The translations under genes and the position numbers were made by a program. Shown here one piece after another: positions 397 to 57,296 of a DNA stretch of 64,000 nt (positions are counted from its first letter, which is position 1; each line of letters starts with the position of its first letter). The stretch comes from Pohlia nutans (lineage: Eukaryota > Streptophyta > Bryopsida > Bryales > Mniaceae), in contig CM040092.1 of NCBI GenBank assembly GCA_022496805.1, positions 131,555-195,554 of the forward strand, written 5' to 3'. The notes beneath the pieces are model-generated. The model did no database searches and had not been told where the DNA came from. It saw only the letters and a list, made by a program, of their open reading frames with translations.

Positions 397-489
397 AATC
401 AACGAAGTCCCATTCACAACAGATGTGAAATTATATCAAGAAAGCATCGAGCAATGATCAAATACTGGCCTCATGCACTAAGGGGTTAA

Positions 490-799
490 CCCCTAAACGT
501 CCCAGCGTCCAAAAACTGGATCACGAACAGATTCAAAGCCTTGTAACTTTCTCATACAATCTCGGATGACTTTCATCCAAGTCACCATTGCAAGCCTATT
601 AAATTCTCTACCAATTAAAGTAAATCTCTTGTAATGGAGAGATGTTGATAATATTGGAGAGGCTTCCAAATGCAAGTATGGCAAATTTGTTAGGTAGATT
701 TTATGCTTGCATGTACACCTCATATACATTTGAGCCATGCTAATATCTATTTTTGAGGCTAGCATTTACTTGTGTTCAAAGGATTGGTATGTTTAGGGG
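490..799 (+). mobile_element. TTAA-bounded MITE, family pbA copy 1
   Basis: The element starts CCCCTAAACGTCC and ends GTATGTTTAGGGG, with TTAA immediately outside both ends (486-489 and 800-803). Inside the left end are a small hairpin-like motif (GCGTCCA...CTGGA) and a second near-palindrome around GGATGACTTTCATCC; both recur in related elements. A second copy at 33708-34029 is inserted inside another element, and a truncated third copy lies at 53664-53837. There is no coding capacity. The TTAA target and CCC ends resemble piggyBac elements; this assignment is inferred from the ends alone. Confidence 0.7.
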
Positions 800-803
800 T
801 TAA

Positions 804-1207
804 CCCCTAAAGGATGTTGGAGTATTTTATACGATGGTACTATCAGCATACAAGTGATGCTAAGGGGTGTAAAAGTGTGAATTTGGAGGGGAGATTTTTT
901 GAGGAGGTGCGTATCCGTGCACTGTGCATATGGTGATTTTCAAGAGCATTTCCATCCATTGTGTGATCATAAAACAATCATGTATTTTCCTAGTACACGA
1001 CTCAAAATACGTAGAAAACGCCCTTTGAGTAGCCATATCTCTTTTTCCGCATCACATATTATTACATAATTTTTTTGTATATTTAGCTCCCATTCGAAGC
1101 TCCATTTTTCATATTTGCAGTTTCTATCAATACCATAGTCTTCGTGATGAAATACCATGTGGTAGAACACTTGCAACCCTTTTTGACATGCAACCTCCTT
1201 TTAGGGG
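804..1207 (+). mobile_element. TTAA-bounded MITE, family pbB
   Basis: Between TTAA at 800-803 (shared with pbA) and TTAA at 1208-1211 (shared with pbC). The left end CCCCTAAAGGATGTTG matches the inverse of the right end (CAACCTCCTTTTAGGGG read backwards) with one indel and one or two mismatches. No other copy was found in this window. It is AT-rich and has no plausible coding sequence. Confidence 0.6.
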
Positions 1208-1211
1208 TTAA

Positions 1212-1792
1212 CCCCTAAACGTCTGAGCGTCCAGAAAGTGGACGACTAACAGATTCAAACCCTTCTCACGTTCTCATCAATGCTTGGATGAAAGTCATCC
1301 AATTTTTTGGAGATTCTTCGTCAAGTTGTTGTCCTATCTAATGGTTGGATTTAGTCATACTTGATTACATATTTTTCTAAAATTACAAATGTAGAAGTAT
1401 GTCAAGTCGTTGACCAAGCCAAAATTGCATTGACTGTAGTTCAAAAGTGGCCTTGCAAAAATGAGGTCAAAGGATTTAAGGAACACAAACATTTCAAAGA
1501 ATCACTATGTTTAAGAGTATCTCATTTCAAACTCATTCCAACAAATTTTACTCAAAAAATATTAAAATTTTGTTTGTAATCAAATTTAGAAGGAATTTCA
1601 AATTTTAACTTTCAAATTTTATGATATAATATTGGTGATAGTATTAGTGAATCGAACCGTACGGATGGAATCTAAAATTCAAAATCTAGAACTTTCATTT
1701 GCATATCAATTCCAAAGTATTCTTCTAAATAGTAGTTTATGATGATTTTTCTCAAACTGTCAATTCCAGGGACACCCTGGTACGTTTAGGGG
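1212..1792 (+). mobile_element. TTAA-bounded MITE, family pbC copy 1
   Basis: An uninterrupted element with perfect 11-base inverted ends, CCCCTAAACGT and ACGTTTAGGGG, flanked by TTAA at 1208-1211 and 1793-1796. The subterminal motif GCGTCCAGAAAGTGGACG forms a hairpin, and TTGGATGAAAGTCATCCAA (about 1273) is a second near-palindrome. A diverged inverted copy lies at 33395-34256 and a 5' fragment near 46930. This copy carries an intact internal TTAA at 1476-1479, the exact site where the inverted copy is interrupted by a pbA element, so it serves as the empty-site reference. Confidence 0.75.
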
Positions 1793-1796
1793 TTAA

Positions 1797-2021
1797 CCCT
1801 TAAAGGTCCAAGGAGCCCTTTCCGACCAGTATAATACACCAATACTCCATTGTATTTGGTATAGTTCCACACCTCCTATGGGTTTAAAATCAAAAGTGAA
1901 GTTAAAATTCACGTCAACATGATTTTAATGAGCTACTGGGGTCTCAATTTGGAACTTTCTATTTACAACAAATGTGAAATATACGCCAACGTACATACTA
2001 TCCCCATCAGCCCTTTAAGGG
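1797..2021 (+). mobile_element. TTAA-bounded MITE, family pbD copy 1
   Basis: A 225-base element with ends CCCTTAAAGG and CCCTTTAAGGG (inverted), bounded by TTAA at 1793-1796 and 2022-2025. A second copy in reverse orientation lies at about 38531-38740 and matches over almost the whole length. It is the fourth consecutive element in a chain whose members share single TTAA boundaries. Confidence 0.7.
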
Positions 2022-2025
2022 TTAA

Positions 2026-3896: not shown

Positions 3897-4450
3897 AGTG
3901 ACTTGTGCATACTCTTTGAGACGAGTAGGTGTTCCGAATGATGTCTTCTATAACATGTGGAACATCACGTGGAGATGTTGGGAGGGACGTTCGCGATACC
4001 AACGTGGATGTTCGCATAGTGACGTGTGCATGCTCGGTGAGACGAGTGGGTGTTCATGATGGTGTCTTCTATAACATGACAACATCACAGTGGATTTTAG
4101 GAGAGACATCCGAGATAACAACGTCGACGTTTGCATAGTGACGTGTCCATGCTGAAGAAGACTAGTGGGTGTACTGAATGATGTCTTCTATAACATGTGG
4201 AACATCACATGGGGATGTTGGGAGGGACGTCCACAATAACAATGTCGATGTTCGTATAGTGACGTGTGCATGCTCTGTGGGACGAGTGGGTGTTCATGAT
4301 GATGTCTTGTATAACATGTACAACATCATAGTGGATGTTGGGAGAGACGTCTGAGATAACTTCGGGACATTCGCATAGTCACGTGTGCATGCTGAGTGAG
4401 ACAACAGGGTATTCATCATGATGTCTTCTACAACATGTAGAACATCCTCT
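3897..4450. repeat. 120-base satellite with A/B dimer structure
   Basis: A unit beginning near AGTGACGTGTGCATGCT recurs at 3897, 4018, 4137, 4258 and 4377. The spacings alternate 121, 119, 121, 119 bases. Odd units carry GTGGAACATCACRTGG with GGGAGGGACGT; even units carry an ACAACATCA version with GAGAGACRTC. The real period is therefore a 240-base dimer of diverged A and B monomers, present about two and a quarter times. The short frames running through it are artefacts of the periodicity. Confidence 0.85.
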
Positions 4451-5289
4451 TAAACGTGGACAATTTCACCATGTTCGGACAACCATGTCCGAAGAGATGT
4501 CAACACACACGCGCATAAATTCGTGGAGACATCTGCCATGTCATTAGCAATGCATAGGTGCACGGGACACAAACGCATAGTAGTCATACTTGATGTTGGC
4601 AGCGACGTCCATATGGACATGGCCAAATCAACTATCATATCGACTGTGACATTGGGTATGTCCGCATAAACGTTCAATCAAACATACTACGCGTTGGTGC
4701 AAACATTGCGTACACCACTCTGTCAATGCGCGATGTTTCAAGAAACACATCCATGTCACGTGGGACGTCCAAATGAACACCCTCCTGATTCAAAAACCGC
4801 CCAAAAGTCTGCTAATGAGGCATGCCACGTCATCTTTTGGCAGGTCCACGTTGGATTTTCGAGCCGCCACGTCATATTTTGGAGGGACCACGCCGTCTGC
4901 TACATCACCATGGGGCCGGATGAAATCCATCGCCATGTGGCACTGCAGGTCATTGTACTGATGATGTGGACTCAACGTGGCACCCACGTGGCACAATTTT
5001 TGGCCTCCCAAATTCATGTCTAGACACGCATGCTACAGAAAACACGCGGATGTTTTTTTGAATGTCTTCACTGAATTCTTCGTGTCTCGGATGTATTTAT
5101 GTTTCTTGGATATCCCGATGCATGTCCACATGTTAATCGCCATGTTCACAGAGATGTCAAAAAAAACCCGGGTTTCTTATAGTGCAGGTGAAATTGTTTG
5201 CAGTAAACAAGTGATCCGCCGCAGGTGATTCTTTTCCGTATAACTAGATACCGACGGTGAGCTCCAGGAAATGGAGCAGAAGACCATAG
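4451..5289. other. Intergenic, rich in CACGT motifs, short direct repeat
   Basis: No gene was found. The stretch 4690-5010 is unusually rich in ACGTGG and CCACGT cores. It also contains two adjacent copies of a segment of about 27 bases, starting at about 4826 and 4865 (GCCACGTCATCTTTTGG and GCCACGTCATATTTTGG). The sequence grades out of the 120-base satellite and shares its GACGT-rich composition, so it may be decayed satellite or the end of a larger transposon. Confidence 0.35.
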
Positions 5290-6954: not shown

Positions 6955-9900
6955 ATGGCGTTCGATGAGGTGCTGGATCGGGATTTGCTTTTTCGAAAGA
7001 TGAAGACCAAGCCCGACAACAAGGTGCCCCACTTACCCCTCTCCCGCTGCTCCTCCTTCTTCTTCTTCTTCTTCTTCTTCTTCTTTTTGACTCTCTTGCT
7101 GTTGCATTTCTCCTGCATGTGCGACGTGGCTTGTCCGCTCATTGCTGTTGTAGTGGATTTTCTTATCACCTCCCGGGGCGCCTGCATCCCACTTTTCTCT
7201 CAAAATTAACGGTGAAACATTTGCGCCGATGAGTCTTCTGCGCAGCACTCTTGTCCCTAGTTGAGCTAGAATTTTGTATTGCTGCCTCTCGATTACTGGG
7301 AGTGAACTCTGTGGCTTGCATGCATGGGACTATCCTGAGCGGTCACTACGCAGGCACTTGGATTGTGGAAAAGTACCTTAGATCCTGCAAGAGAACCTTA
7401 GATCCTGCAAAAGTCCCCGCGTTGTATTGAGTGTAGCTAGGTTTGGGAATGTTTCTCCTGTGTCACCCTCTTACTCTGCACATAGAATCCAACGCGTCTC
7501 GCGTTTCGATCAGGGGATTCCCAGTTTCCGATTCAAGTCGAACCACGTTCGAAGGATGTGGCGTGCTGCGACTTCTCGAAGTTCTAGGTTGACTTTGTTC
7601 GGTAATGTAATGTAATGTGTTGTATTGTATGTTTCCAATCGTTAGCACTCTTGACTGGTAGATAGTGCACAACCCTCGGCAATACAAGGAAGACCCAAAG
7701 TCCCCTGCGGCGAGTAGGAGCCTGCAAGATCACATCATTCTACGGTTTCTCGCAAAATGAATGCTAGTGGGCATGAGTTGTTGTGGGTTCTGATTACTTC
7801 GATTGCCACCAACAGTGAAGGTAGTGCCAATGTTGGACATAGCAGACCAAACAACGCAACGCAGCCCGAGTCTGCACTTGCTGCGTTGTTTCCAAGCACT
7901 GCTAGATTAACAATTAGCGTGACAAAGGCGGGTGCTCGCAAACCCAGCGAGCGAGCGAAGACGTCTGTTGCCATGGCCTGTGGAGAATGCCAAGATCTCA
8001 TGTGAGCACCACGATGTGGGATTTAACTGAGCCTGGCCAGGTCATGGATTGTGCAGATATGTTTTGATTGTAACGCGAAGAATCCTACCTGGTCTTCTGT
8101 GACGTACGGTATTTTTATCTGTCTGGACTGCTCCGCCCTTCATCGCAGTCTGGGTGTGCATATCAGCTTTGTTAGGTATGTCTTCGTGCATATGCCGAAT
8201 CGTGAAGATTCATTGATGCATGCTTGCTTCTCCTCATCAATTAGTCGAGCCTAGCCTGCAGGAAGGAGGGTGTCTCTGAGCAGAGCAGTGCTTCTAACGG
8301 CTTGGATGGAGAAACATGCCCTAGGTCGACCACGCTGGACAGTTGGAACCAAGATCAGCTGAAGCTGATGAGTCTTGGTGGAAACGGGCGGGCGCGTTTG
8401 TTCTTCAAGCAGCATGGTTGGACGGATGGAGGCCGCATTGAGTCCAAATACGTTTCTCGAGTGGCCGACCTATACCGTCAGCTTCTAGCCAAGGAAGTGG
8501 CCAAAAGCGTGGCTGCTGGAGCGAGATTTGCGCAGCCTGCCTCTCCAGTGTCTGACAGACCCGCTCAGGGGGCCTTGTCCGCTGCGAACGAGTCCTTCTT
8601 TTTTGAGGAGCCGCAACCTCCCCGGCTCAAGCCTGTCGCTCCTGCCCCGGTTGCTCGTCCAGTGTCTAGTGGCCTCACCCGCAAGCCTGTATCGTCTTTT
8701 GGAGCTAAAAAGCTCCCATCCAGCAAAGTTGGGGGTGGTCTGGGCATACGCAAACTAACCACCAAGGTGCGCATGCCGTTTTCTGCAGGTGATCTGTATT
8801 CGGTCACGGCGGACTGTATTCCTGCATGCATGACTCATTATTTCTTTCTCGAAATTGATATCGTAGACCCATTACTCTGATTTCTTCTTCGATACTTCAC
8901 TTCACCCGAGTCTAGAAGTCCCTTCTGAATTACTGGTGGCGTGCATTCCATTTGGAGTATTAGTCCGTGCTTGTATATAATGGTGGATGTGTTTTGTTTT
9001 TATGGGCTTCCATATGCCATTCTCGCACCTCATAGCACTTGTTGATTGCTGCTGCAGCCCAGTGAAGGCCTTTATGATCAGAAGCCAGCCGACGTTGTAA
9101 CTGAACCACTTGCTCTAGCACCTCCCTCAGGAGGGATCATGCAGTCAGCCCCGCGAACCTCAAGGTTCGTTTACTCTGATGATTCGCTTCCAACGAGTGA
9201 ATCCCTCGGCAATTGCAACTCCAAGACCGGCCATGTTGCAGCCCCGTCTACTATTGCTGACTTTTTCGCTGAGTTTGGAGCATCTCCCATCAAACCATCT
9301 TATTCTAACGGACGTTCCAAGGCACAGGTATGCGTTTCATCTTGTGTCTGCTATTGACAATTCTTCAACAAACTTGCAGGAACGTGAAATTATTGCTCAG
9401 AATCAACGACGGAGCATACTGGTTCCTGCATGTTCCTCTGATAGTCACGATGTATAGAGAAGGCCATAAGGCAGAGTAGTCCAATCCAGCTTCTCGTCGG
9501 CGTGGCTTGCTAAAACCTCATGGAAAACGGTCTAGGCAGTTCCTTCAATTAAGAATACTTGAGTTAAGAGTTCAAACAAAGTCTCGTTCAACAAAACTGA
9601 GAACGTTTGAAACACATTTGCGTTGAACGCTAGAGCAACTTAATACTCACATGTTCTCATGTTATTTTATTTCTGTTGGCAGCCTGAAGACAGCTATGAA
9701 GCACAGAGAAAGTTTGCCAACGCCAAGTCCATCTCTTCCGCTCAGTACTTTGGCAACCAGGAGAAGAACGAGGACTCTAAGAATTCCGGCCGTTTACAGA
9801 AATTTGCTGTGAGTTTCTTAGTAAGACTGCACTAAAACACCTGTAGTCAAGAATATTCATGTATCCAACATACTTTGAGCTCCATGTTATGCTATCCTTC

Positions 9901-13584: not shown

Positions 13585-14182
13585 CCCCTAACTGCCTAAG
13601 CGTCCATTTTTTGGACGATGTACAGATTTCATCCAAAATTTCTCATCTGTCATGCACTTTTAGTAGTGTGGAGTTTTTACTGTAGATTCTATAGGAAGTT
13701 AGCTTCACGCATATGTGATCCGATTAGAAAGGGGATGATTTGTGAATTTTTTATGCCTCATTTCATGTTGTAGTAATTCACCCAAAATTTTGAAGATTTC
13801 AGTGTAAAAGTGTTCTAAAAAAAGTCAACTCATAAAATTAAACAACCAAAAAATCTCCAAAAATCACTACACTTAGAGTATTCTCCAAAAATCTCCAAAA
13901 ATCACTACACTTACATTTCAACCAATCACAAAAAATTTAACCCATAGATTGTCAATATTTTATTCATAATTGAATTTTGAAATAATTTTGAATTTCACGT
14001 TTCAAATTTTATACAAAATTATTGGTAATAGCAATCATAGATCTCACCGTATGAATGAATCTAAAATTCATAATGTACAACTTTTATTCATATATCAAGT
14101 TCAAAATATCCCTCTAGGTTGCATTATATAATGCATCTTTGCAAAACTGCTGAATTTGGAGAGGGCTCTAGGCATTTAGGGG
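13585..14182 (+). mobile_element. TTAA-bounded MITE, family pbF
   Basis: A 598-base element between TTAA at 13581-13584 and TTAA at 14183-14186. The ends CCCCTAACTGCCTA and TAGGCATTTAGGGG are inverted with one mismatch in 14. A subterminal GCGTCCATTTTTTGGACG hairpin matches the position of hairpins in pbA and pbC. The left TTAA overlaps the right TA of the neighbouring mariner-like element. Confidence 0.7.
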
Positions 14183-14186
14183 TTAA

Positions 14187-14359
14187 AAGGAATGAAGCAC
14201 AAACATTTCAAAAATCTTCCCTTTCAAATCCGTTCAAACCTACATGAAGCTAACTTCCCATAATATCCATGGTAACAAATCTGCACTGCCCAAACTGCAT
14301 GACGGATGAGAGACAATGAGTGACATCTGTACAGCGTCCAAAACTGGACGCTCAGGCGG
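14187..14359 (-). mobile_element. Truncated inverted copy of pbF
   Basis: Read on the minus strand from TTAA at 14360-14363, this begins CCGCCTGAGCGTCCAG and follows the 5' part of pbF (GTCATGCA, then GGAAGTTAGCTTCA). It ends at the TTAA shared with pbF. About 170 bases remain of an element near 600 bases long, so it is a fragment. Confidence 0.6.
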
Positions 14360-14363
14360 TTAA

Positions 14364-15089
14364 CCCTTTGAAATGCTGTAAACTCTGTGAACTATCTAAG
14401 TTCGGTGTCTGAAGTTCAGAAGTGTAATTTTTGATTATGCAGATGATGCGGAAAGAAATTTTGAAATCTGACTTTTTTAAATATCCAAATACCTATGTTC
14501 AAAACACCAAAATACTGCAAATACCACAAAATACAGCAAATACTTACAAATACAACACAGGTACTATGCGGTATTTCTTTGTTTTGGAAGTTTGTTATTT
14601 TGTATTTATTTTTGGATTGTGTTCTCTTGTTCATGTTCCATCAATGTATGTATCCCGATCTTGATCAATGTACCAAATCTTTTCTTATTTTAACGTATAA
14701 ATTTTGTCTTAAACCGTACATAGATAAGTCACTCTCACTTATAAAATTCACAATAATTATGTGTGAGTCAATTCTTGACATGAAAGATTGCAATGGAGAG
14801 GTGTTGACATAGGTCATTGCTGAAATGCTTCACTTTCATTTTTGAAAATTTTACCAAAATTCTATTCAACTTTGAAGTCACACACCCCTCAAAATTTCAT
14901 TTTGGAGTGTGCATTATACGGTTCAAAGACATACTATAATCTTCCAATCCAACGGTCTGATCTGACCAAGATTTAACCAAAACTTGTTTCATTAAGCTAT
15001 GCTTATATTGATACGGTTGAATACTATTGATAGCATTCCTAATTTCCAGAGAAAGTTTTAAAAAAATATCACCCCAAGGTTGAGACGTT
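14364..15089. other. AT-rich intergenic sequence
   Basis: No gene is seen. The longest frames are AT-rich and have no recognisable features. The sequence ends where the left arm of the RPS6 inverted duplication begins. Confidence 0.35.
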
Positions 15090-18080
15090 CAAAAACTGAT
15101 AATTCTTTGCGCAAAAGACAGAATTTCCATTACTCTTCTCATGCATCCAAGTTTGTTTGTAGTTCGATCAGTTTTCACAGGTATGAGTCCCAATGACAAG
15201 AATATTCGGAACGACAGGGCTCTCGCTACAGAAATTATTTACAAGTACCGAATCTGTGCGTTGTTTGTGGGTTGGAACATTTGACTAATAGACCAAAATT
15301 GACGACATACGCGTCCACCACCTGCACCGACTCTCGCAGCATCCATCCATCAATCACGAGATATCGCATTCAGAGCACAAGCTCAAAAACAAGCTCATGT
15401 ATTCACGAGCGTTGCATTCAGATGTGGAAGGTACAAACAGAAGCAAATTTGTATGGCGAAAACAAGCATCTCCACTCAAAAAATCCACTTCTCAGTAAAA
15501 TGTTTCTTATAAGCCGGAGAGAAACTGCCAGACAAACTGAGGTTATAGCTGGACAGACTTAATCTAAGCCTCTGGCTTGGCAATGGAGGCACGAGACGCA
15601 CGCTTCTTGGCCAAACTCTCACTGCGGTGCTCGCGCTGCTCCTTGATACGAAGAGCCAAAAGCTTCTGGTATTCTGCTGCTTCCGTCTTGGCCTTGGCAA
15701 CCCTCTGCTTCTTGATTGCCACTCTGCGACGCTTCCTCTGCAATGTCAAGGGAGTCACGAGCCTCTGGATCTTGGGTGCCTTGCTCCTCTTCTTACCTGG
15801 TGGCACCCTAATGTAAGTAACAAAGCTAAAACAAACAAACATGCCCGCATCCCCACTTGAAGAAAGATGTCGGCCGTCATTTTAATACAAGTCATCTTCG
15901 ACAGTAATCTTTGAAGAGAGAATGTACCTGTAGCCGACACAAAGCTGCGGCGATAGGTGTTGACGTACTTCCTCACGTCGTCCTCCTTGGTAAGGTTGAA
16001 AAGCTTGCGAATTTTGGTGGCCCTCTTGGGACCCCTCATTCTTGGTTTCTCAATGTCCGTGAGGCCAGGGAGATCGTTGTCGCCTGAAGGCACGAGGAGC
16101 AACATCAGTTTACACTGATGTAGACTTATTAAGACACCAGATTTTAACGATATCAGATGCACAAAGCCATCTGACCAAATTCCGACCTAAAATTCACAAT
16201 AGATGATTAACCTAAAATAAAACCTGCATGTTTCGAATATCTGCGTCCCCGAAACAATTTCCAAAAAGCATTCTGCACTACTTTTAATCATCGTTGATCA
16301 TGCCAGCTCCAGACGCAACTCCGTGTCCTGAGAGAAAATGAATGTCACTTACCTTGCTTGACAATAACGAGGTTCAGAACGGAGAGGTCAGGGCTAACAA
16401 TGCAACCCCTGACAGACTTGCGTCTGCGCTCTCCGTTGCGCCTCCCGTGTCCTCGGAAGCAGGATACTCCTGGAAAAACAAAAAAGACGACATGAGAAGG
16501 TTCCAGATTTCAGAATCAAATCGTCCTGGGCATCGTTTACACATCGAGGGTACCTTGGGAGACATCGTTACTCGTGAAGAGCACTGGTTTCATGTGCTGG
16601 AGGGGCTTTACCTCGCTGCATAAGAAGCTGGACACGTCCTTGAGTCAGGACTCCCTGTTTCATCGGGAAACCCTGCTTGTCGCAGCCGCCCATGATCTTG
16701 AAGACATATCCCTTGAACTCATCTCCGAGCTGGTCACCGCTGACCTCCTGAGCCAATCTCTTGTCGTAGAATTGGCGGCTGAACCACAGAAAAAATATCA
16801 GTACGGAAAAGCAGCAGCCTAGGAAAACAGTCCCGCACACTGCTGGGAAGACACGAATGCAGGCATGGGGAAAAAAGACTACGAAAGCAGCCAGAACAGC
16901 ATCGACGCAAGGGGCCCGAATCGAGAAACCCTAAACCCTAAGAAACGTCAAACACCGTAACCGACGGAACAAGATCCAGCGAAGCGCAGGACGCAAAGGA
17001 AAAGGGAGAGAAATATTACAGCTTGGCGTCGTCGTCAATCTCCACTTTCTTCTGGCACCCCGTCGTGGGGTTGGCGATGTTGAGCTTCATGGCGCCGGCG
17101 TTAGGGTTCGGGGAGGCACAAAGACGCAAAGACGCACAAGCGCAAAAGGAGAGAGACCGACGGGCCTTGTGGCCTTTACACCCCCTGCCCTAACTCCATT
17201 TGCCGGGTCACTCCTTCCGTTGGGGCGAGGCCAGCCCCAAGCGACTCTCCCTGTGGCATCGGGGACCCACCTAACTTCTTCCAGAGCCGTCCGATCTGCA
17301 AGGACGATCTCAGCCGTCCACGCCCTGAGAACACACCGTCGGGAACTTTGGGCACGCTTGCTTGTGCATCCTGTACCGGTCAGGTTCAGGGATTTTCTTT
17401 TGGTGTTTTTGGAGAAATGCTAAAGCGAATAAATAAATAAATAAAATAAAATGATGTAGCCAAATATTTTTATACTCATCTATATCTTTGATAGGACTAT
17501 CCTTTCAGTCACATATTTGAATGATTTTCATTTAAGATTGGCAACTTCATCTGATTTATTTTCAGAAATTGAAACAATCTGGTATCTTCATTCATTTTTT
17601 CTTCAAATTTCTTCTTTAAAGCTTGGTTCACACCAATTATTTTTAGTGCTTTCAACATTTAAATTCCTAAAAAGACATCATTGGTCAATTTTAGAGCCGG
17701 TTTCCATGAGCTCTTACAAACAAGTTGTCTGCAGCCGTGCCAGACCGATAGGTCCCTTCCCCATCGTCCAACCTCATATACATCCATTATTTTAGAAAAT
17801 ACTTGTTTCTCATCTGCTTGGACAAATGATCATGGAAACATGCTCTAAACCCGCCCGCTCTACTACCAAACCACTACAAATAAACTTAGACCCATTTTGA
17901 TATCAAAAAGGGAGGTAGTGGTCAAAAACACTATTTATTTTTGTTTGTCGTACTTTTTTGTTAGCACGGTATAAACACTTCTCTCATGTAGGTGGAAGAG
18001 GGCTGGTTGGTTGTTACAACCTTTATGCCTTTGATAACTCACTAACAACACCAAATCATATGTATCTTATAACTTTTCTA
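15090..18080. repeat. Left arm of the RPS6 inverted duplication
   Basis: An arm of about 2,990 bases, reverse-complementary to 21958-24948; paired coordinates sum to 40038 throughout. The predicted proteins, introns and flanks I compared are identical. The only mismatch I found lies at the inner edge (18068 against 21970), with matching resuming for about 12 bases. The arm carries the whole RPS6 gene plus about 990 bases upstream and 470 downstream. Outside 15090 and inside 18080 the two sides diverge abruptly. Confidence 0.92.
15564..17090 (-). CDS. RPS6: 40S ribosomal protein S6 (eS6), left copy
   Basis: Five exons on the minus strand: 17020-17090, 16612-16778, 16353-16469, 15928-16083 and 15564-15796, giving 247 residues with GT-AG introns that keep frame. 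It encodes eS6, a core protein of the cytosolic small ribosomal subunit and the classical target of S6 kinase. Recognisable blocks are the start [18 protein letters not shown], then [54 protein letters not shown] and YVNTYRR. The basic tail ends in [18 protein letters not shown], whose serines lie where eS6 is normally phosphorylated. The length is normal for plant eS6. The protein is identical to the copy at 22948-24474, and the two are divergently transcribed. Confidence 0.96.
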
Positions 18081-18445
18081 ATTGTGGTCTAGAGAGAGGG
18101 GCTCCTAGCAAGGGTTATGGGAGGGTTACTATTAGTAAGGTTTTTGGTAGTGATAATGATTGGGGCACTATTGTGGTGAATGTATTAATCTACAGAAATA
18201 AAAATTGGCTAGAATTATTCTCTGGTCATGTGGTTCAACTAAAAAACAGATATGCTAGGAATGGTTATGTGAGAAACCGACAAATCCCGTGGTATATTCG
18301 TAATCATGAGGTCGATACAAGACCGCTTATTCAATGCACCTCTGTAACCACAATCCCTGTTATCCTTATGCTAGTATCGAATTAATCAAAATATGAGGGT
18401 TGGCCCATAAATATAGATGTATAACAACTTTAAAGATGCCAAGTC

Positions 18446-20860: not shown

Positions 20861-21228
20861 TATGCAACATTCGAATGATGTTTTGAAAGATGGAGGAAGG
20901 AAAAAAACGCTGCCTTAAGTACTTTTTGGTAGACAGTAAAAGAGATAAGAAAACGGAAAATAAGAAAAAATAAATAATTTCTTTCTCCCGTACACTCTAG
21001 CAACGGTGTTATAATGTCTTAATCTATTCATAATTTGTATTTTTTCTAAACACTCAATTTTGCAATTTAAAAAATAAAAGAAATCCAAATTTTTGAGATG
21101 AAAAATTCAAAATACTAGTCTTTTATTGCAATATACTACAAGTTTCAACAAAGAAAGAAATCGATGTTTTTTTGTTAATTTTTTTTTGAGAATTTTTATT
21201 TTTTTGCACAACTGGGTCTGGAACTCGA

Positions 21229-21490
21229 GGGGTGCACTCTACCAAACATGTACAAGTATATGTGAGTGCACAGGAGGGATATTAAATTGAATATTGCCGT
21301 ATTACGTATACATACAATAGACATGTTTAGAGAAGAAAATATTAACGTATACATACATTAAACATATATTTAGGATGGAATAGATTTGTACACAAAAGTT
21401 TTAGTTATATAATTCCTTGTATACAAGGGGGTTTTCATAGGGAGTCATGAACGCACGTGATTCTCAAACATAGTGTAGAATGCACCCCCC
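21229..21490. mobile_element. MITE family L, copy 2
   Basis: The ends GGGGTGCACTCTA and TAGAATGCACCCCCC are inverted. The interior matches the copy at 124-396 (CATGTACAAGTATATGTGAG, TTAAACATATATTTAGG, GTGATTCTCAAACAT). It lies in the spacer near the inner end of the right RPS6 arm. The remaining spacer pieces, 20861-21228 and 21491-21957, show nothing I can name. Confidence 0.65.
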
Positions 21491-22947
21491 AAGGTCTGGA
21501 AATGATTGAAATTGGCCAAGTGCAAAAATGGGAAATTGGATATTTTCCCCTTTTAAATTTTTGAGCAATTTTTTTACTTTTTGTAAATTGTGAAGGATTT
21601 GTGCTGAAACTAATACATATGTGGCTACTGCAAATCCAAAGGGAACACCAAAGGAGGTAAGGCGAGATGGAAGTTAGACAATATTGAATTGCACGCATAT
21701 ATTGGCATTTCCATATTGATGTGAATACAAAATATTACCTAACCATAGATCTAATTGAATGTTTTCGTGTCCATTTCTAACTTGCACATTTGATTTGACT
21801 TGTATGTTCAAAGATTTCTTTAACATAACTGGATGGTGCTTTAGACACTATGGCTGCAATCATATAAGTGGTGTTAAAAGACAAAAAGATTAGCACACAT
21901 AAAATGAGTTAAACATGAGTCATGCATAATGAGATGCGTCTCACCCGTACCCGTAGTTAGAAAAGTTATGAGATACATATGATTTGGTGTTGTTAGTGAG
22001 TTATCAAAGGCATAAAGGTTGTAACAACCAACCAGCCCTCTTCCACCTACATGAGAGAAGTGTTTATACCGTGCTAACAAAAAAGTACGACAAACAAAAA
22101 TAAATAGTGTTTTTGACCACTACCTCCCTTTTTGATATCAAAATGGGTCTAAGTTTATTTGTAGTGGTTTGGTAGTAGAGCGGGCGGGTTTAGAGCATGT
22201 TTCCATGATCATTTGTCCAAGCAGATGAGAAACAAGTATTTTCTAAAATAATGGATGTATATGAGGTTGGACGATGGGGAAGGGACCTATCGGTCTGGCA
22301 CGGCTGCAGACAACTTGTTTGTAAGAGCTCATGGAAACCGGCTCTAAAATTGACCAATGATGTCTTTTTAGGAATTTAAATGTTGAAAGCACTAAAAATA
22401 ATTGGTGTGAACCAAGCTTTAAAGAAGAAATTTGAAGAAAAAATGAATGAAGATACCAGATTGTTTCAATTTCTGAAAATAAATCAGATGAAGTTGCCAA
22501 TCTTAAATGAAAATCATTCAAATATGTGACTGAAAGGATAGTCCTATCAAAGATATAGATGAGTATAAAAATATTTGGCTACATCATTTTATTTTATTTA
22601 TTTATTTATTCGCTTTAGCATTTCTCCAAAAACACCAAAAGAAAATCCCTGAACCTGACCGGTACAGGATGCACAAGCAAGCGTGCCCAAAGTTCCCGAC
22701 GGTGTGTTCTCAGGGCGTGGACGGCTGAGATCGTCCTTGCAGATCGGACGGCTCTGGAAGAAGTTAGGTGGGTCCCCGATGCCACAGGGAGAGTCGCTTG
22801 GGGCTGGCCTCGCCCCAACGGAAGGAGTGACCCGGCAAATGGAGTTAGGGCAGGGGGTGTAAAGGCCACAAGGCCCGTCGGTCTCTCTCCTTTTGCGCTT
22901 GTGCGTCTTTGCGTCTTTGTGCCTCCCCGAACCCTAACGCCGGCGCC

Positions 22948-24474
22948 ATGAAGCTCAACATCGCCAACCCCACGACGGGGTGCCAGAAGAAAGTGGAGAT
23001 TGACGACGACGCCAAGCTGTAATATTTCTCTCCCTTTTCCTTTGCGTCCTGCGCTTCGCTGGATCTTGTTCCGTCGGTTACGGTGTTTGACGTTTCTTAG
23101 GGTTTAGGGTTTCTCGATTCGGGCCCCTTGCGTCGATGCTGTTCTGGCTGCTTTCGTAGTCTTTTTTCCCCATGCCTGCATTCGTGTCTTCCCAGCAGTG
23201 TGCGGGACTGTTTTCCTAGGCTGCTGCTTTTCCGTACTGATATTTTTTCTGTGGTTCAGCCGCCAATTCTACGACAAGAGATTGGCTCAGGAGGTCAGCG
23301 GTGACCAGCTCGGAGATGAGTTCAAGGGATATGTCTTCAAGATCATGGGCGGCTGCGACAAGCAGGGTTTCCCGATGAAACAGGGAGTCCTGACTCAAGG
23401 ACGTGTCCAGCTTCTTATGCAGCGAGGTAAAGCCCCTCCAGCACATGAAACCAGTGCTCTTCACGAGTAACGATGTCTCCCAAGGTACCCTCGATGTGTA
23501 AACGATGCCCAGGACGATTTGATTCTGAAATCTGGAACCTTCTCATGTCGTCTTTTTTGTTTTTCCAGGAGTATCCTGCTTCCGAGGACACGGGAGGCGC
23601 AACGGAGAGCGCAGACGCAAGTCTGTCAGGGGTTGCATTGTTAGCCCTGACCTCTCCGTTCTGAACCTCGTTATTGTCAAGCAAGGTAAGTGACATTCAT
23701 TTTCTCTCAGGACACGGAGTTGCGTCTGGAGCTGGCATGATCAACGATGATTAAAAGTAGTGCAGAATGCTTTTTGGAAATTGTTTCGGGGACGCAGATA
23801 TTCGAAACATGCAGGTTTTATTTTAGGTTAATCATCTATTGTGAATTTTAGGTCGGAATTTGGTCAGATGGCTTTGTGCATCTGATATCGTTAAAATCTG
23901 GTGTCTTAATAAGTCTACATCAGTGTAAACTGATGTTGCTCCTCGTGCCTTCAGGCGACAACGATCTCCCTGGCCTCACGGACATTGAGAAACCAAGAAT
24001 GAGGGGTCCCAAGAGGGCCACCAAAATTCGCAAGCTTTTCAACCTTACCAAGGAGGACGACGTGAGGAAGTACGTCAACACCTATCGCCGCAGCTTTGTG
24101 TCGGCTACAGGTACATTCTCTCTTCAAAGATTACTGTCGAAGATGACTTGTATTAAAATGACGGCCGACATCTTTCTTCAAGTGGGGATGCGGGCATGTT
24201 TGTTTGTTTTAGCTTTGTTACTTACATTAGGGTGCCACCAGGTAAGAAGAGGAGCAAGGCACCCAAGATCCAGAGGCTCGTGACTCCCTTGACATTGCAG
24301 AGGAAGCGTCGCAGAGTGGCAATCAAGAAGCAGAGGGTTGCCAAGGCCAAGACGGAAGCAGCAGAATACCAGAAGCTTTTGGCTCTTCGTATCAAGGAGC
24401 AGCGCGAGCACCGCAGTGAGAGTTTGGCCAAGAAGCGTGCGTCTCGTGCCTCCATTGCCAAGCCAGAGGCTTAG
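22948..24474 (+). CDS. RPS6: 40S ribosomal protein S6 (eS6), right copy
   Basis: Exons 22948-23018, 23260-23426, 23569-23685, 23955-24110 and 24242-24474 encode 247 residues, identical to the left copy. Each donor and acceptor is GT-AG, and phases are conserved. The start ATG is the first codon of the eS6 consensus [11 protein letters not shown]. Upstream CT-rich leader sequence and a telo-box in intron 1 are typical of plant ribosomal protein genes. Since the duplication includes about 990 bases of 5' flank, this copy should be as expressible as the left one. The duplicated unit stops about 470 bases after the stop codon. Confidence 0.96.
23097..23112 (+). promoter_or_regulatory. Telo-box motif in RPS6 intron 1
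   Basis: TTAGGGTTTAGGGTTT lies 79 bases into intron 1 (mirror position 16926-16941 in the left copy). Telo-boxes (AAACCCTAA) are common in leaders and promoters of plant ribosomal protein genes and are associated with expression in dividing cells. A role here is inferred only from motif and position. Confidence 0.45.
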
Positions 24475-24948
24475 ATTAAGTCTGTCCAGCTATAACCTCA
24501 GTTTGTCTGGCAGTTTCTCTCCGGCTTATAAGAAACATTTTACTGAGAAGTGGATTTTTTGAGTGGAGATGCTTGTTTTCGCCATACAAATTTGCTTCTG
24601 TTTGTACCTTCCACATCTGAATGCAACGCTCGTGAATACATGAGCTTGTTTTTGAGCTTGTGCTCTGAATGCGATATCTCGTGATTGATGGATGGATGCT
24701 GCGAGAGTCGGTGCAGGTGGTGGACGCGTATGTCGTCAATTTTGGTCTATTAGTCAAATGTTCCAACCCACAAACAACGCACAGATTCGGTACTTGTAAA
24801 TAATTTCTGTAGCGAGAGCCCTGTCGTTCCGAATATTCTTGTCATTGGGACTCATACCTGTGAAAACTGATCGAACTACAAACAAACTTGGATGCATGAG
24901 AAGAGTAATGGAAATTCTGTCTTTTGCGCAAAGAATTATCAGTTTTTG

Positions 24949-25345
24949 GACGTTCTGGAATCATTGGGTTTGCGGGAGCACCCTACTATGTAAAAGGTGT
25001 TGGAGTGAGGTCGCAACACTACCGTCACCCCTTTTTAGACATTGCGAATCATGTCGTGTTGTCCGCTCGCCTTGTTTCTTCATTTTAGGTGTTTGAAGTT
25101 TGATGGGCTTTAGGGTTTCTAGATTCAGGCCTCCCCTCACTTCGATGATTATCAGTGGTTGCTTTTGTTGTACAGCTTCATCAAATATGTATTTGTATCT
25201 TCGCGGCGGTGTGCAGGAATTTCCTACTTGCTCTCCTAGGCTGCTTGTATATATTGATATCATTTCTGTGGTTCAGCCGCCAATTTTAGGACAAGAGGTT
25301 GGCTCAGGACGTCAACGGTGATCAGCTAGGGGATATGTTCAATGT
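24949..25345 (+). pseudogene. Decayed RPS6 fragment (intron 1 to exon 2)
   Basis: From about 25090 the sequence follows RPS6 intron 1 (GTGTTTGAAGTTT, GGGCTTTAGGGTTTCT, TCTCCTAGGCTGCTTGTA, TCTGTGGTTCAG) and runs into the start of exon 2 at 25277. The exon piece matches the functional gene with several substitutions: codons for RQF are followed by TAG where the gene has TAC, giving a nonsense codon. It stops matching after GGGGATATGTTCAA. The first 140 bases are not RPS6 but are shared with the segment at 12300-12535. The fragment begins exactly where the right duplication arm ends. Confidence 0.75.
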
Positions 25346-31646: not shown

Positions 31647-32373
31647 CCCCTAACTACCGGCAAGACCAAAAAATGGCTTATAAAGGAATTCGATGTTCAA
31701 TTCCAACTGTTGCATGGATGATTTTTATCCAATTCTTTATGTGAAGGGCTTTGCTTGGTGATGCCACCCTTCAAGTTAAATTCAAATCATTCAAGTTATT
31801 TTTAGATTTTACATGGGGTCCCAACTACAAAAAGAGTCTTAAAAACGGTTCACCGTGTAGTGTATTTTGAATTTTTTTGCTTGTTCTATTTAAACTAAAT
31901 TTAGGCCATGAAAATGAGTTCCATTGCATTTGAGCTTAACCAACAAAATGAAGCTTACCAAGTCTAGTTTCTACTCCAATTTGAATTTCTAAAAAAATTT
32001 GAAAATTGAGTGTTTTAAATTGTAGTTACAAGTTTGGTAGGTATCACCAAGGTGTAGCAAAATTTCTAAATTTAGATACACGGATGATTTTCATCAACTA
32101 AACTTTTCTTCATTGTAATTTACACATTTGGTAAAAAAATCGGAATTTTCTAATACATTTTGTAATTGATATAGATTTTCTTTACAATCACTTCATAAAA
32201 CCATAGTAATTTCAAAATTTTCACCAAAATTTATGGAAAATTCATGATTTGTAGTAGACATGTGACTTCATTTGCTGAAAATACAAATTTGAATTTTGGT
32301 ATTATTTTTAGTAGAAAAATTGAGTGTGACAGATAAAACATGATTCCATGGTCATAGGCCCAACCTTTAGGGG
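31647..32373 (-). mobile_element. TTAA-bounded element family pbI, full copy 2
   Basis: It lies between TTAA at 31643-31646 and TTAA at 32374-32377, with ends CCCCTAACTACC and CCTTTAGGGG (only seven or so bases strictly inverted). On the minus strand it is homologous to 51327-52355 and 11605-12200. Its internal TTAA at 31776-31779 is intact and single, and marks the exact place where the 51-kb copy is split by element pbJ. It is non-coding. Confidence 0.65.
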
Positions 32374-33394: not shown

Positions 33395-34256
33395 CCCCTA
33401 ATGGTTACAAGGTGTGCCTGAAATTGACAATTTGAGAAAAACCATTGTAAAGTACTATTGGAAGAATATTTTGGAATTGATATACAAATGAAAGTTCTAG
33501 ATTTTGAATTTTGAATTCCATCTATATGGTTGATTCACTACTGTTATCACCAATATTTTACTATAAAAATTGAAAGATAAAATAAAAAATTTGTTCTAAT
33601 TTGATTACAAACAAAATATTAATATTTTTTGTGTAAAATTTATTGAAATGAATTTGAAACAAGATACTCTTGACATGGTGATTTTTAGAAATTTTTGCGT
33701 TCCTTGATCCCTAAACGTCCCAGCGTTCAAAAACTGAATCATGAACAGATTAAAAGCCTTGCAACTTTCTCATACAATTTCGGATGGCTTTCATCCAAGT
33801 CACCTTTGTAAGACTATTAAATTTTCTACCAATTACAATAGTTCTCTTGTGATGAGGAGTTGTTGATAATATTAGAGAGGCCTCCAATTGCAAGTATGTC
33901 AAATTTTTTGGGTAGATTTTATGCTTGCAATGGTCCTCTCATGTACACCTCATGTACATCTAAGCCATGCTAATATCTATCTTTGAGGCTAGCATCTACT
34001 TGTGTTCTAAGGATCAGTATGTTTAGGGGTTAAATCTATAACCTTGTTTTTGCAAGGTCACTTAGTCAAAAATCACATACTTCTACATTTGTAATGTTAG
34101 AGAAGTACCAGTATGTACTCTAATAACACCAAATCCAACCATTGGATAGGTTAACAACTTGAAAAATGTTTCATGGTGACGAGGTTCATGAGGAAGGATA
34201 TATGGATGAAAACAAACATCCATCAACCCCATAGGGGTCAATTGAGCCTTTAAGGG
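33395..34256 (-). mobile_element. Inverted pbC copy 2, split by a pbA insertion
   Basis: Read on the minus strand, 34030-34256 matches the first half and 33395-33703 the second half of the uninterrupted pbC element at 1212-1792. The two halves are separated by a pbA element at 33708-34029. The outer boundaries are CTAA (33391-33394, a likely mutated TTAA) and TTAA (34257-34260). Confidence 0.7.
33708..34029 (+). mobile_element. pbA copy 2, nested inside pbC copy 2
   Basis: Begins TCCCTAAACGTCCCAGCG and ends CAGTATGTTTAGGGG, matching the pbA element at 490-799 throughout. The flanks are TTGA (33704-33707, one change from TTAA) and TTAA (34030-34033). The same position in the uninterrupted pbC copy is a single TTAA at 1476-1479. 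This shows insertion with a four-base TTAA duplication. Confidence 0.8.
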
Positions 34257-38530: not shown

Positions 38531-38740
38531 GCTCTTAAAGGGCTGATGGGGATAGTAGATACATTGGCGTATATTTGACATTTGTTGTAAATAGAAAGTT
38601 CCAAATTGAGACTCCAATAGCTCATTAAAATCATGTTGACGTGAATTTTAACTTCACTTTTGATCGTAAACCTATAGGAGGTGTGAAACCATGCCAAATA
38701 CAATGGAATATTAGTGTATAATATCCGGGACCTTCTAAAC
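38531..38740 (-). mobile_element. TTAA-group MITE, pbD copy 2
   Basis: Read on the minus strand this matches pbD at 1797-2021 over its length (CAATGGARTATTRGTGTAT, TAGGAGGTGTG on the opposite strand, GTTGACGTGAATTTTAACTT). The terminal sequences are more decayed than in copy 1: TTAG and CTCTTAAAGGG on one side, CCTTCTAAAC on the other. Confidence 0.65.
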
Positions 38741-51326: not shown

Positions 51327-52355
51327 CCCCTAAGCGTCGGGCCTATGACCATGGAATCTTGTTTTACCTATCACACTCAATTTTGACACTATAAATAAGT
51401 TAAGAATTGAACATTATATTTTTAGTACATGAAGCCATGGGTCTACTACTTTTCATAAATTTTCGTGAAAGTTTGAAATTACTATGATTTTTGAAGCGAT
51501 TGTAAAGAAAATTCATATCAATTACAAAATGTTTTTAAAATTTCCGATTCTTTTATCCAAGGTGTAAATAACAATGAAGAATAGTACAGTAGATGAAAAT
51601 CATCTATATATCTAAATTCAAATGATTTCCCTACACTATGGTAATACCCACCGATATTGTAACTCCAAAAAATCACTCAAAGTTCAGAGTTTTCCAAAAA
51701 TTCAAAATAGAGTAAAAACTAGATTTGGTAAGCTTCATTTGTTACTTTAGCTCAAATGCAATAGAACTAATTTTCATGGCTTATATTTAGTTTATGCAAG
51801 AAAAAACAGAAAAATCCAAAATACACCATACGGTGAACCGTTTTTACTACTCTTTTTGTAGTTAGGACCTCATGTAAAATTCAAAAATAATTTAAATGAC
51901 CTTGATTTAACCCTTAAACGTCAAGGTAAGCCCATGGGCTTATTTAAAAGAGAATAATGAAGAAAAAGTGGATTTTCTCAACCAAATCAAGCGAAGATTG
52001 GTGCATTGGAATGATACTGAAAAAGCGATCTAGATTCCAAATTTGCGCCTCATTTGAGAGATTGTGGAATCGTTGGTAAGCAATCAAAGTTATCAAATTG
52101 AACAGGTTTTGAGGTTGGAGCAGTTGAGGTGCCGCAGTGCTACAATGCTGGCCAACAGTGCCCAACATAATCGTTTTTGCATTTTTTTTGTTCGTTTTTT
52201 TTCGTTTTTTTGTTTTTTTCTCCTCCCTCCAAAAATTTAGATGCCTTCCAGGCTGCCCCGCCCAGGCCCTCTTGACGTTTAAGGATTAACTTGAATAGAT
52301 GGCATGAGCAACGAAGAGCCTTCACGAAAAGAATTGAATTAAAAATCCTTCGTCC
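51327..52355 (+). mobile_element. pbI copy 3, split by element pbJ
   Basis: Begins CCCCTAAGCGTCGGGCC after TTAA at 51323-51326. It follows the minus strand of 31647-32373 down to CCTTGATTTAA at 51910. After the inserted pbJ, homology resumes at CTTGAATAGATGGCAT (52290) and continues through CTTCACGAAAAGAATTG before fading near 52355. It is a non-coding host of a nested insertion. Confidence 0.7.
51911..52285 (+). mobile_element. TTAA-bounded MITE pbJ, nested inside pbI
   Basis: Ends CCCTTAAACGTCAAG and CTTGACGTTTAAGGA are inverted with one mismatch in 15, flanked by TTAA at 51907-51910 and 52286-52289. The uninterrupted pbI copy has a single TTAA (31776-31779) at this position, so the TTAA is a true target-site duplication. 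The element is 375 bases and non-coding, with a T-rich internal stretch near 52180-52220. Confidence 0.85.
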
Positions 52356-53659: not shown

Positions 53660-53663
53660 TTAA

Positions 53664-53837
53664 CCCCTAAATGTATCAACCCTTTGAACATAAGTATATT
53701 CTAGCCTCAAAAGTAGATATTAGCATGCCTCAAATGTTCATGAGGTGTACATGAGAAGACCACTGCAAGCATATAATCTACCCAACAAATATGACATACT
53801 TGTAGTTGGAGGCCTCTCCAATATTATCAACAACAAA
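53664..53837 (-). mobile_element. Truncated pbA copy 3
   Basis: After TTAA at 53660-53663, the minus-strand reading of this stretch matches the last half of pbA (GAGGTGTACATGAGA, GGAGGCCTCTCCAATATTATC on the plus strand). The rest is interrupted by the hairpin element that starts at about 53838. Confidence 0.6.
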
Positions 53838-54310: not shown

Positions 54311-54851
54311 CCCCTAAGCTCCCAAGAGACCATTTTTTGGTCACTGCCCGTTTTTAACAGGCTGCCCATAACCAAAAAATAAGTTTTTGAAAAAATAAAA
54401 AATATTTTTAAATACTTCATCAAGTCTACTTTCCAACCCAAGTTGAATTATGTCAATCCATGTTAAATTCCACCCGGGAGAATTTTTCAAAGTAAATCAC
54501 TTCAATATTGTCTTAGTGTTACAAAATTTGCTATATGGGGAAAGTAATGATGTTCCCTCCATCGTTTCTTTTGCTTTTTTTAAGTTTACAATAGATAAAT
54601 CAAATTTAACCAATCACGCTAAATTTCAAACTGTACAAGTGGAAATTAGAATTTATACAAATTTTCAAAGGTTAATGCTTTAAATTCATTAAAAAATGAT
54701 CTAAAGTTATTTTTGGAAGTTTGACCGTACAAATAATTTGTACAGATGCTGCCCTACATTTTGTCTATTGAACCAAACTTCATCAAACATATGGAAGGCA
54801 CATATTATAACACATCTATGTTTTGTCCAATACCCCTCGGGCTTTTAGGGG
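54311..54851 (+). mobile_element. TTAA-group element pbK, copy 2
   Basis: Begins CCCCTAAGCTCCCAAGAG after TAAA (one change from TTAA) and ends CGGGCTTTTAGGGG before TTAA at 54852-54855. The subterminal AGAGACCATTTTTTGGTCAC hairpin occupies the same place as those in pbA, pbC and pbF. The interior matches 30590-31100. It is non-coding. Confidence 0.65.
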
Positions 54852-56209: not shown

Positions 56210-57296
56210 GACATGCTACAACCTCAAGACTTTACGAATAATTTGAATACCTAGTAATACCGTATGGGATAGGATAATATTCTTAAGGAGAAATGTGAAA
56301 GTTGAAATCTGAGAAACAAGATTAAACAACTACACTACGAGGAGCTTTGACCAAAATACAACTATTAAAGAACGAGAATGCATTTCAATGGAATCATGAA
56401 TGAAATATATTTGCTCAAAAATATGGTATTCAGCCCAAAAAATTGAGTGTTCCTACAATGCCCCTTCCCTACGGTGAGAGCCAATAAAAAAGAGGCAAAG
56501 AAAACGGAACTCCTTTAGTTTGTCTGGCTGTAGACGGAAGAATCTTGGACATTTCTGTTGAATACAATATTAGCCCGCGAGATACAAGTGGACAAGGGGA
56601 GATAAAGTTTAGCAGCGCAAAAGATAACCCAGCGTTACGTGGCAGGGGGTAAGGGAGGGAGGGACTCAGTGTATAACTTAGTTTGTCCCTGCCTGCCTGC
56701 CTGCCTGCCAGAGTTCGAGTGAGGCGAGTGTAAGTATAAAGGGGCAGGCACGGTGCGTGCATAGCCTTCTCGTTGCTGAGCCCTGCCTGCTTGCCAGCAT
56801 TTGCTGGCCTTGGCCACCCCGCCCCTCAGTTGAACTCGCGTACGTTGTACCAGACTTTGTGAAAGGCTGTCTTCGTCCGCTCCTCCGGGCTCCTTTTCGC
56901 TTTTTCTTTCCTTCCTTCCCTTCTTCGGTCGCTTCTGGCCATCGCCCCGGCTCTTCGTGCGTTTCCTTTCCACTTGTTCTTCTTCCCTGGCCTAGTTGTT
57001 GTTGTTGTTGTTGTTTTCTGCGCTCCCACGGCGCTTCTACGTTTCTAGACTTGCTACGGCTGTTGTAGCTTTCCCCACACCGTTCCCTAGTTCTTCCCGT
57101 CTTTGGTTGCAGCTTCTTCTTGACAGACCCCGTCCGTTCTCTTTTGTTACCTTCCATTCCCTGCGTGCTCCGCATTCCCTACTAGTCTTCGGGCCACGCT
57201 GCCCCTTCCTGGATCCAATCCGCCCTGCCTGCCATTTACTGTTGTCCACTCTCTCGACGCTTGCGTCTTTTGTACTTGCTCGACGCCGCGTTTCAA
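56210..57296. other. Promoter and 5' leader region of DPE2
   Basis: AT-rich until about 56.5 kb, then increasingly GC- and CT-rich toward the gene. It has a (CCTG)n run at about 56688-56710 and a (GTT)n run at about 56996-57014. The CT-rich stretch from 56.85 kb probably belongs to the 5' untranslated region. I cannot place the transcription start. Confidence 0.45.

Follow-up and report, generated by a model that had tools for sequence, protein, structure and literature searches.

Small TTAA-bounded elements joined end to end in the moss Pohlia nutans and their likely link to piggyBac transposases

Near the left edge of the window (the whole 64-kb stretch of the Pohlia nutans genome analysed here), four small elements, pbA to pbD, lie back to back (Table 1). 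Such an arrangement raises the question of whether the block is one repeat or several, and of which transposase moved its members. The block very probably represents four TTAA-bounded, likely non-autonomous piggyBac elements, likely inserted in succession by a piggyBac transposase at the TTAA flanking an earlier copy.

The block, its junctions and their abundance

Re-reading of the sequence confirmed the layout proposed in an earlier note on this DNA: the four elements occupy the coordinates given there, and each neighbouring pair has one TTAA in common. The junctions are also palindromic as claimed, two of them perfectly and that of pbC and pbD with one mismatch; when up to three mismatches were allowed, the 20-base junction was matched four times in the window (with 0, 0, 1 and 2 mismatches), versus 0 times in 100 shuffles. 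The ends of pbA-pbD start with CCCC or CCCT, forming short terminal inverted repeats of the CCY type. The statement that the four interiors are unrelated proved wrong for pbA and pbC, which are 81% identical over their first 100 bp (family D1).

An element-like end, CTAAGGGG, abuts the first TTAA (486-489) from the left, and ATGAACCCTTTAGTGCC, about 365 bp before the window start, is a candidate left end for the same putative element (pb0). Because the right ends of copies related to this candidate fit poorly with the end left of the block, pb0 is only a possible, degraded fifth member. A further inverted-repeat element, whose ends are of the GGGGTGCA type, is present in the window in two copies at 80% identity (123-396 and 21228-21489), the former sitting just left of the block.

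Table 1. Positions of the block, its TTAA sites and related elements within the window
Feature	Position	Strand	Remarks
pbA, small TTAA-bounded element, 310 bp	490-799	+	TTAA at either side
pbB, small TTAA-bounded element, 404 bp	804-1207	+	copies elsewhere in the assembly
pbC, small TTAA-bounded element, 581 bp	1212-1792	+	first 100 bp akin to pbA
pbD, small TTAA-bounded element, 225 bp	1797-2021	+	ends CCCTTAAAGG...CCTTTAAGGG
TTAA, left edge of block	486-489	.	between pbA and possible degraded fifth element
TTAA common to pbA and pbB	800-803	.	inside perfect 20-base palindrome
TTAA common to pbB and pbC	1208-1211	.	inside perfect 20-base palindrome
TTAA common to pbC and pbD	1793-1796	.	palindrome with one mismatch
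TTAA, right edge of block	2022-2025	.	
H-family element	13585-14182	+	ends like source element A28
Relative of element 51327-51906	31787-32373	-	80%; holds empty TTAA site near 31,770
pbA copy within reversed pbC copy	33708-34029	+	flanks TTGA / TTAA; joined flanks 115/136
Degraded pbD copy	38534-38723		
TTAA-bounded element in copy of another family	51911-52285	+	joined flanks 136/164
Partial pbA copy, right half	53664-53832	-	82% to pbA 154-310; TTAA at 53660-53663
e54-family element	54311-54851	+	left end like A31, 85% over 60 bp; flanks TAAA / TTAA

Ends and junctions of this kind are abundant in the assembly containing the window (697.8 Mb, 332 contigs). The 12-base end TTAACCCCTAAA occurs there in 83,024 exact copies (41,466 + 41,558), versus 285 (129 + 156) for its reversed control, while the exact 20-base junction, for which the earlier note had proposed a genome-wide search, occurs 1,084 times, versus 0 for the reversed control. 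In 276 kb of sequence (the window and loci L001-L024, a sample enriched because every locus was fetched for holding a junction), 167 of 202 CCCYTAA words have a TTAA just before them, as opposed to 0 of 50, 0 of 60 and 0 of 114 for rearranged control words; two further words (157 of 208 and 1 of 210) overlap the true end or a shifted frame and do not serve as controls. Additional TTAA-bounded ends reading CCCTTTAGTGCC, probably of another family of the same kind, were found in L021, L035 and L040.

Target site and separate insertion

Twenty-seven full-length copies of the families pbA, pbB, pbC, pbD, H and e54 are present in the window and L001-L024, with pbB and pbD each contributing just their window copy. 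TTAA stands at either side in 23 of these, the four exceptions being flanked by TTGA/TTAA, TCAA/TTAG, TAAA/TTAA and TTAT/TTAT. The other full-length local copies of pbA number five (85-87%), and those of pbC four, with TTAA at either side in all four. The target is consistent, in agreement with the TTAA specificity asserted earlier, and the inconsistent target that had been set as its refutation did not appear. The e54-family copy with TTAT at either side (L023:6593-7133) possibly used a non-TTAA target.

A search with joined flanks gave 111 candidate pairs of filled and empty sites, from which four were picked out; these fit a TTAA target with a 4-bp duplication. In the best pair, the flanks of a 234-bp element (L009:6789-7022), once joined, agree with L008 in 199 of 204 positions and have one TTAA between them. 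The joined flanks of the window element at 51,911-52,285 agree with its related counterpart near 31,770 (136 of 164), and those of the pbA copy within pbC, whose left flank is TTGA, match pbC at 115 of 136 aligned positions. In the L015 pair the agreement is 157 of 186; its empty site reads TAAA, and a local repeat duplicates the left boundary. The empty sites, though clean, may never have been filled in the first place. L009 also carries an element of a different kind (3905-4889, about 980 bp), which has GGGGTGACACCG edges in opposite orientations and splits an H-family copy. A nested-element reading of window positions 13,585-14,359 was discarded: other copies place the end of the H element at 14,182 and identify what follows as a reversed fragment.

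If the block were a single composite repeat, copied as a unit, its junctions would recur intact. The pbA/pbB junction, the sole one examined genome-wide, does not: a 211-bp query spanning pbA, TTAA and pbB had one full-length match, its own site (40 scored of 2,803 candidates). The 39 other matches listed lie on the pbB side (38) or the pbA side (1). Among the 38, 21 begin exactly at the TTAA and seven within three bases of it, and the remaining ten begin 7-16 bases ahead of it, a shift that the adjoining end of another element would produce. The search with pbB alone (333 candidates) gave 40 scored matches including the window copy, and hence at least 39 others; 38 of the 40 are within 15 bases of full length, both ends taken together, and reach to seven bases or fewer from either end. 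Moreover, pbA, pbB and pbC each have copies that are not neighboured by the other block members. A composite repeat, in favour of which nothing was observed, is hardly credible given a pbA/pbB junction that is unique among the scored matches and a pbB dispersed alone, and we rejected it; at this junction, the earlier proposal of separate insertion, rather than of a block recurring as a unit, holds.

In the mechanism that we propose, each cut-and-paste insertion would duplicate the TTAA, so that the flank of an element would stay a valid target. A second insertion at this flanking TTAA would yield a palindromic GGGG-TTAA-CCCC junction, and pbA-pbD would have been inserted one after another, each at the TTAA beside an earlier copy, by piggyBac transposase. 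With a high local density of elements, such hits would need little or no special attraction. The transposase might nevertheless prefer TTAA sites by existing ends, or the palindrome itself. Perfect junctions use 2,168 of the 83,024 perfect ends (2.6%), against a naive per-side rate of 0.7-1.1% (340 TTAA in the 64-kb window, 1,611 in the 200 kb of L005-L024), and double-ended TTAA sites within the loci, counted without the junctions used to fetch them, number 2, 6 and 7 at 0, 1 and 2 mismatches, versus 0.5, 2.1 and 3.2 expected. However, the window block itself supplies 2, 3 and 4 of these sites, leaving, at one mismatch, 3 outside the block versus about 1.8. L005-L024 without their central junctions contain 94 ends per 3,182 TTAA sides, and this rate of about 3%, inflated because the loci were chosen at junctions, equals the junction rate. 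The 2- to 4-fold excess over the naive rate is therefore mostly gone once local crowding is counted. The observed and expected numbers of double-ended sites indicate that crowded random TTAA insertion explains most junctions; beside it, there may be a mild preference for existing ends. Self-homing of the transposase, which is compatible with successive insertion, appears rather unlikely. The earlier idea of repeated insertion beside earlier copies thus stands as far as separate insertion is concerned, while an enrichment at existing ends may for the most part reflect crowding.

piggyBac transposases and their source elements

The genome encodes at least 116 near-full-length transposase domains matching PF13843 (DDE_Tnp_1_7), this being the number scored of 1,305 first-look candidates, whereas the profile matched in 0 of 14 control genomes. 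All 116 matches have E<=3.1e-74 and cover nearly the whole profile, and 78 of them, as counted from the matches listed, lack an internal stop; since the 116 are the best-scoring matches, the set leans towards intact copies. Compared with solved structures (PDB), the L026 frame matched piggyBat (E 1.5e-32) and piggyBac (E 2.6e-25). Four conserved aspartates are present in seven of eight sampled transposases, L025 having one D replaced by N, and inspection of the sampled frames shows cysteines close to their C-terminal end.

Relatives of the L026 transposase comprised 248 matches. Among the best 120, the top database proteins show at most 65% identity, and the matches that carry an organism name come from animals, at 30-34%. 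A tree of 46 rows, for which the root is a midpoint only, places the 8 sampled transposases and 24 database proteins together across a 100/100 branch from 8 animal proteins and 6 further database proteins. The predicted transposases of this genome form, in this tree, a group apart from animal piggyBac. The eight sampled ones represent several lineages, interspersed with database proteins on their side of the branch. The piggyBac reading given earlier is supported by the presence, in the same genome, of transposases of this type within elements that have the same kind of ends. As for the "one TTAA-specific activity" suggested along with it, the TTAA specificity stands, and the single activity may in fact be several, since the transposases fall into a number of divergent lineages.

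Of eight transposase loci retrieved, all but L030 and L032 were extended by upstream DNA, making six extended loci. Four complete transposase-bearing elements (of the at least 116 transposase copies) could be delimited: A26 (5.9 kb), A29 (5.0 kb), A31 (5.4 kb, its left end picked from two candidates by likeness to the e54 family) and A28 (9.1 kb). All have TTAA at either side and CCCYNAA ends, with a CCC start at both ends; they are candidates for the autonomous copy with a piggyBac-type transposase that the earlier note had proposed to look for. For L025 and L027, right ends alone were found. A stretch of 5.1 kb is 98.3% identical between L028 and L032, which lie on separate contigs; this speaks for recent movement of these elements. 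In L028, oriented with L037 (3897-4783 and 7468-8087), tandem repeats upstream of the transposase frame recur inverted downstream. The right flank of the L027 element (with L038, oriented positions 7966-8034) matches the pbC interior at 87% over 76 columns, so this source element probably landed within a pbC copy.

Similarity over 44-78 bp of the ends pairs the small elements with these sources. The left end of A28 is matched by the left 44 bp of pbA (80%), 71 bp of pbC (73%) and 78 bp of an H copy (81%), and one H-family right end resembles the right end of A28, while the left end of e54 matches A31 (60 bp, 85%). When compared with the eight source ends, 55 of the 167 strict small-element ends, among which the copies of one family count several times, were above the 99% level of shuffled ends. 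We infer that these transposases were the movers of the small elements, and likewise the order of insertion. Several observations are at odds with this explanation: pbB and pbD have no matching source among the source-element ends compared, four of the 27 copies depart from TTAA/TTAA, and among the filled and empty pairs there is one TAAA and one TTGA site.

The case of pbB and pbD leaves some room for other TTAA-targeting superfamilies, Kolobok or Sola3, as movers of some or all four elements. Both also duplicate TTAA, yet their transposases differ and Kolobok ends begin AAAGGRR, whereas the ends in question are of the CCC type and those of pbA and pbC resemble a transposase-bearing piggyBac element; we regard this origin as quite improbable. 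Elements of the Tc1/mariner type, which target TA and whose ends would here read ACCCC..., are an even poorer explanation. At a TTAA site the TA and TTAA readings consist of identical letters, and an intact Tc1-type frame is present in the genome (L005:8701-9738, an open frame of 346 aa with PF13358 and PF01498). However, TTAA at either side in 23 of the 27 copies means that the outer T and A are fixed rather than free, which argues against a TA target, and the piggyBac source elements bear the same ends as the small elements. A TA-target origin is therefore extremely unlikely and was dropped in favour of insertion by piggyBac transposases.

A26, A31 and A28 contain a similar stretch of about 110 aa upstream of the transposase. 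With a profile built from the three sequences, L025 (E 1.7e-44) and L027 (E 6.7e-19) proved to have it as well, which makes five of the six elements with upstream DNA, A29 being without it; the five domains show 31-36% identity to the first. Two single-protein genome searches (150 matches scored in each, of 539 and 642 candidates) placed it on the strand of the transposase and no more than 10 kb upstream in 66 of the 116 cases (32 + 34, without overlap; from the first search, the union took the 32 members that were paired), versus 0 in both searches for the controls (opposite strand, downstream and seven shifts). In the first search, 116 of the 150 domain matches had no listed transposase behind them, and solitary domains do not follow from this number, because 116 of 1,305 transposase candidates were scored. 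Searches for relatives of the domain gave nothing in Pfam up to E 1 (three sequences), 0 of 25 candidates at E<=0.001 with one query against 5.8 billion proteins, a best match of E 0.32 among solved structures, and a single NCBIfam match (E 0.14, an unrelated family, one of five sequences). It could either belong to the transposase as its first exon or form a protein of its own. This upstream module probably travels with the transposase and could have a plant-specific role in binding the ends or in choosing the target.

Comparison with piggyBac elements of animals and plants

The moss elements and animal piggyBac (Trichoplusia piggyBac, piggyBat) are alike in their TTAA target, CCY-type ends, DDE_Tnp_1_7 domain, conserved aspartates and many non-autonomous relatives. 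They differ in the plant host, in the ends CCCCTAAA, in the separate transposase group and in the upstream domain without known relatives. The sources described here (5.0-9.1 kb) are also larger than the intact beetle elements of 2,074-3,465 bp, with one frame, that are reported in a section of PMC12732532. The coral piggyBac-type MITEs with unusual features treated in PMC2872659 seem comparable, being MITEs in a paper that has much on piggyBac and TTAA, and differ in their animal host.

It is only rarely that piggyBac is reported from plants. A passage of PMC4093653 assigns it to animals or other organisms, and the one in PMC2528002 that names five plant superfamilies does not include it. Plants are named among piggyBac sources, without detail, in a passage of PMC10813416, and plant piggyBac is described as occasional, e.g. 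in red algae, in PMC12732532. Plant repeat tables share with our elements the label alone, giving a copy count (1,230 PiggyBac copies in the table for the fern Ceratopteris in PMC6890710) or presence (PiggyBac among the superfamilies present in all groups studied, according to the relevant part of PMC4438587); the passages concerned mention neither ends nor target sites, transposases or source elements. PMC10619864 was removed as a plant mention: the word used there is "piggybacking". Among the open-access papers listed in literature searches, no title or abstract opening described a moss piggyBac lineage.

We regard the elements described here as a variant form of piggyBac, a known superfamily, in a host where it was not expected. 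It is probable that a land-plant branch of piggyBac swept this genome, leaving small elements in the tens of thousands, and that it keeps open, recently copied sources as well as an upstream module not described before. With 83,024 perfect ends and no fewer than 116 near-full-length transposase domains, this genome would show that the absence of piggyBac from plants is not general. Direct tests of the route of piggyBac into plants, of its expansion in this genome and of the role of the upstream domain become possible, and a plant-adapted piggyBac with recent copies could serve as a tool for plant genomes.

The window also contains an inverted repeat of 2,997 bp (15085-18081 and 21957-24953) with 99.93% identity between its arms. 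Frames within it resemble ribosomal protein S6, to which we presume them to be related; the single frame scanned from it had no Pfam match. A Pfam scan of six frames recovered the Tc1-type frame of L005 and a weak ArfGap match below its cut-off, with four other window frames giving no match. Frames at about 57186-62920 resemble what we take to be the plant glucanotransferase DPE2. For a plastid-lipid protein encoded in the window, the best organism-named match, at 62% and covering 68% of the query, is from Ceratodon purpureus; four other proteins rank above it, and matches from ferns, seed plants, liverworts and Selaginella follow below.
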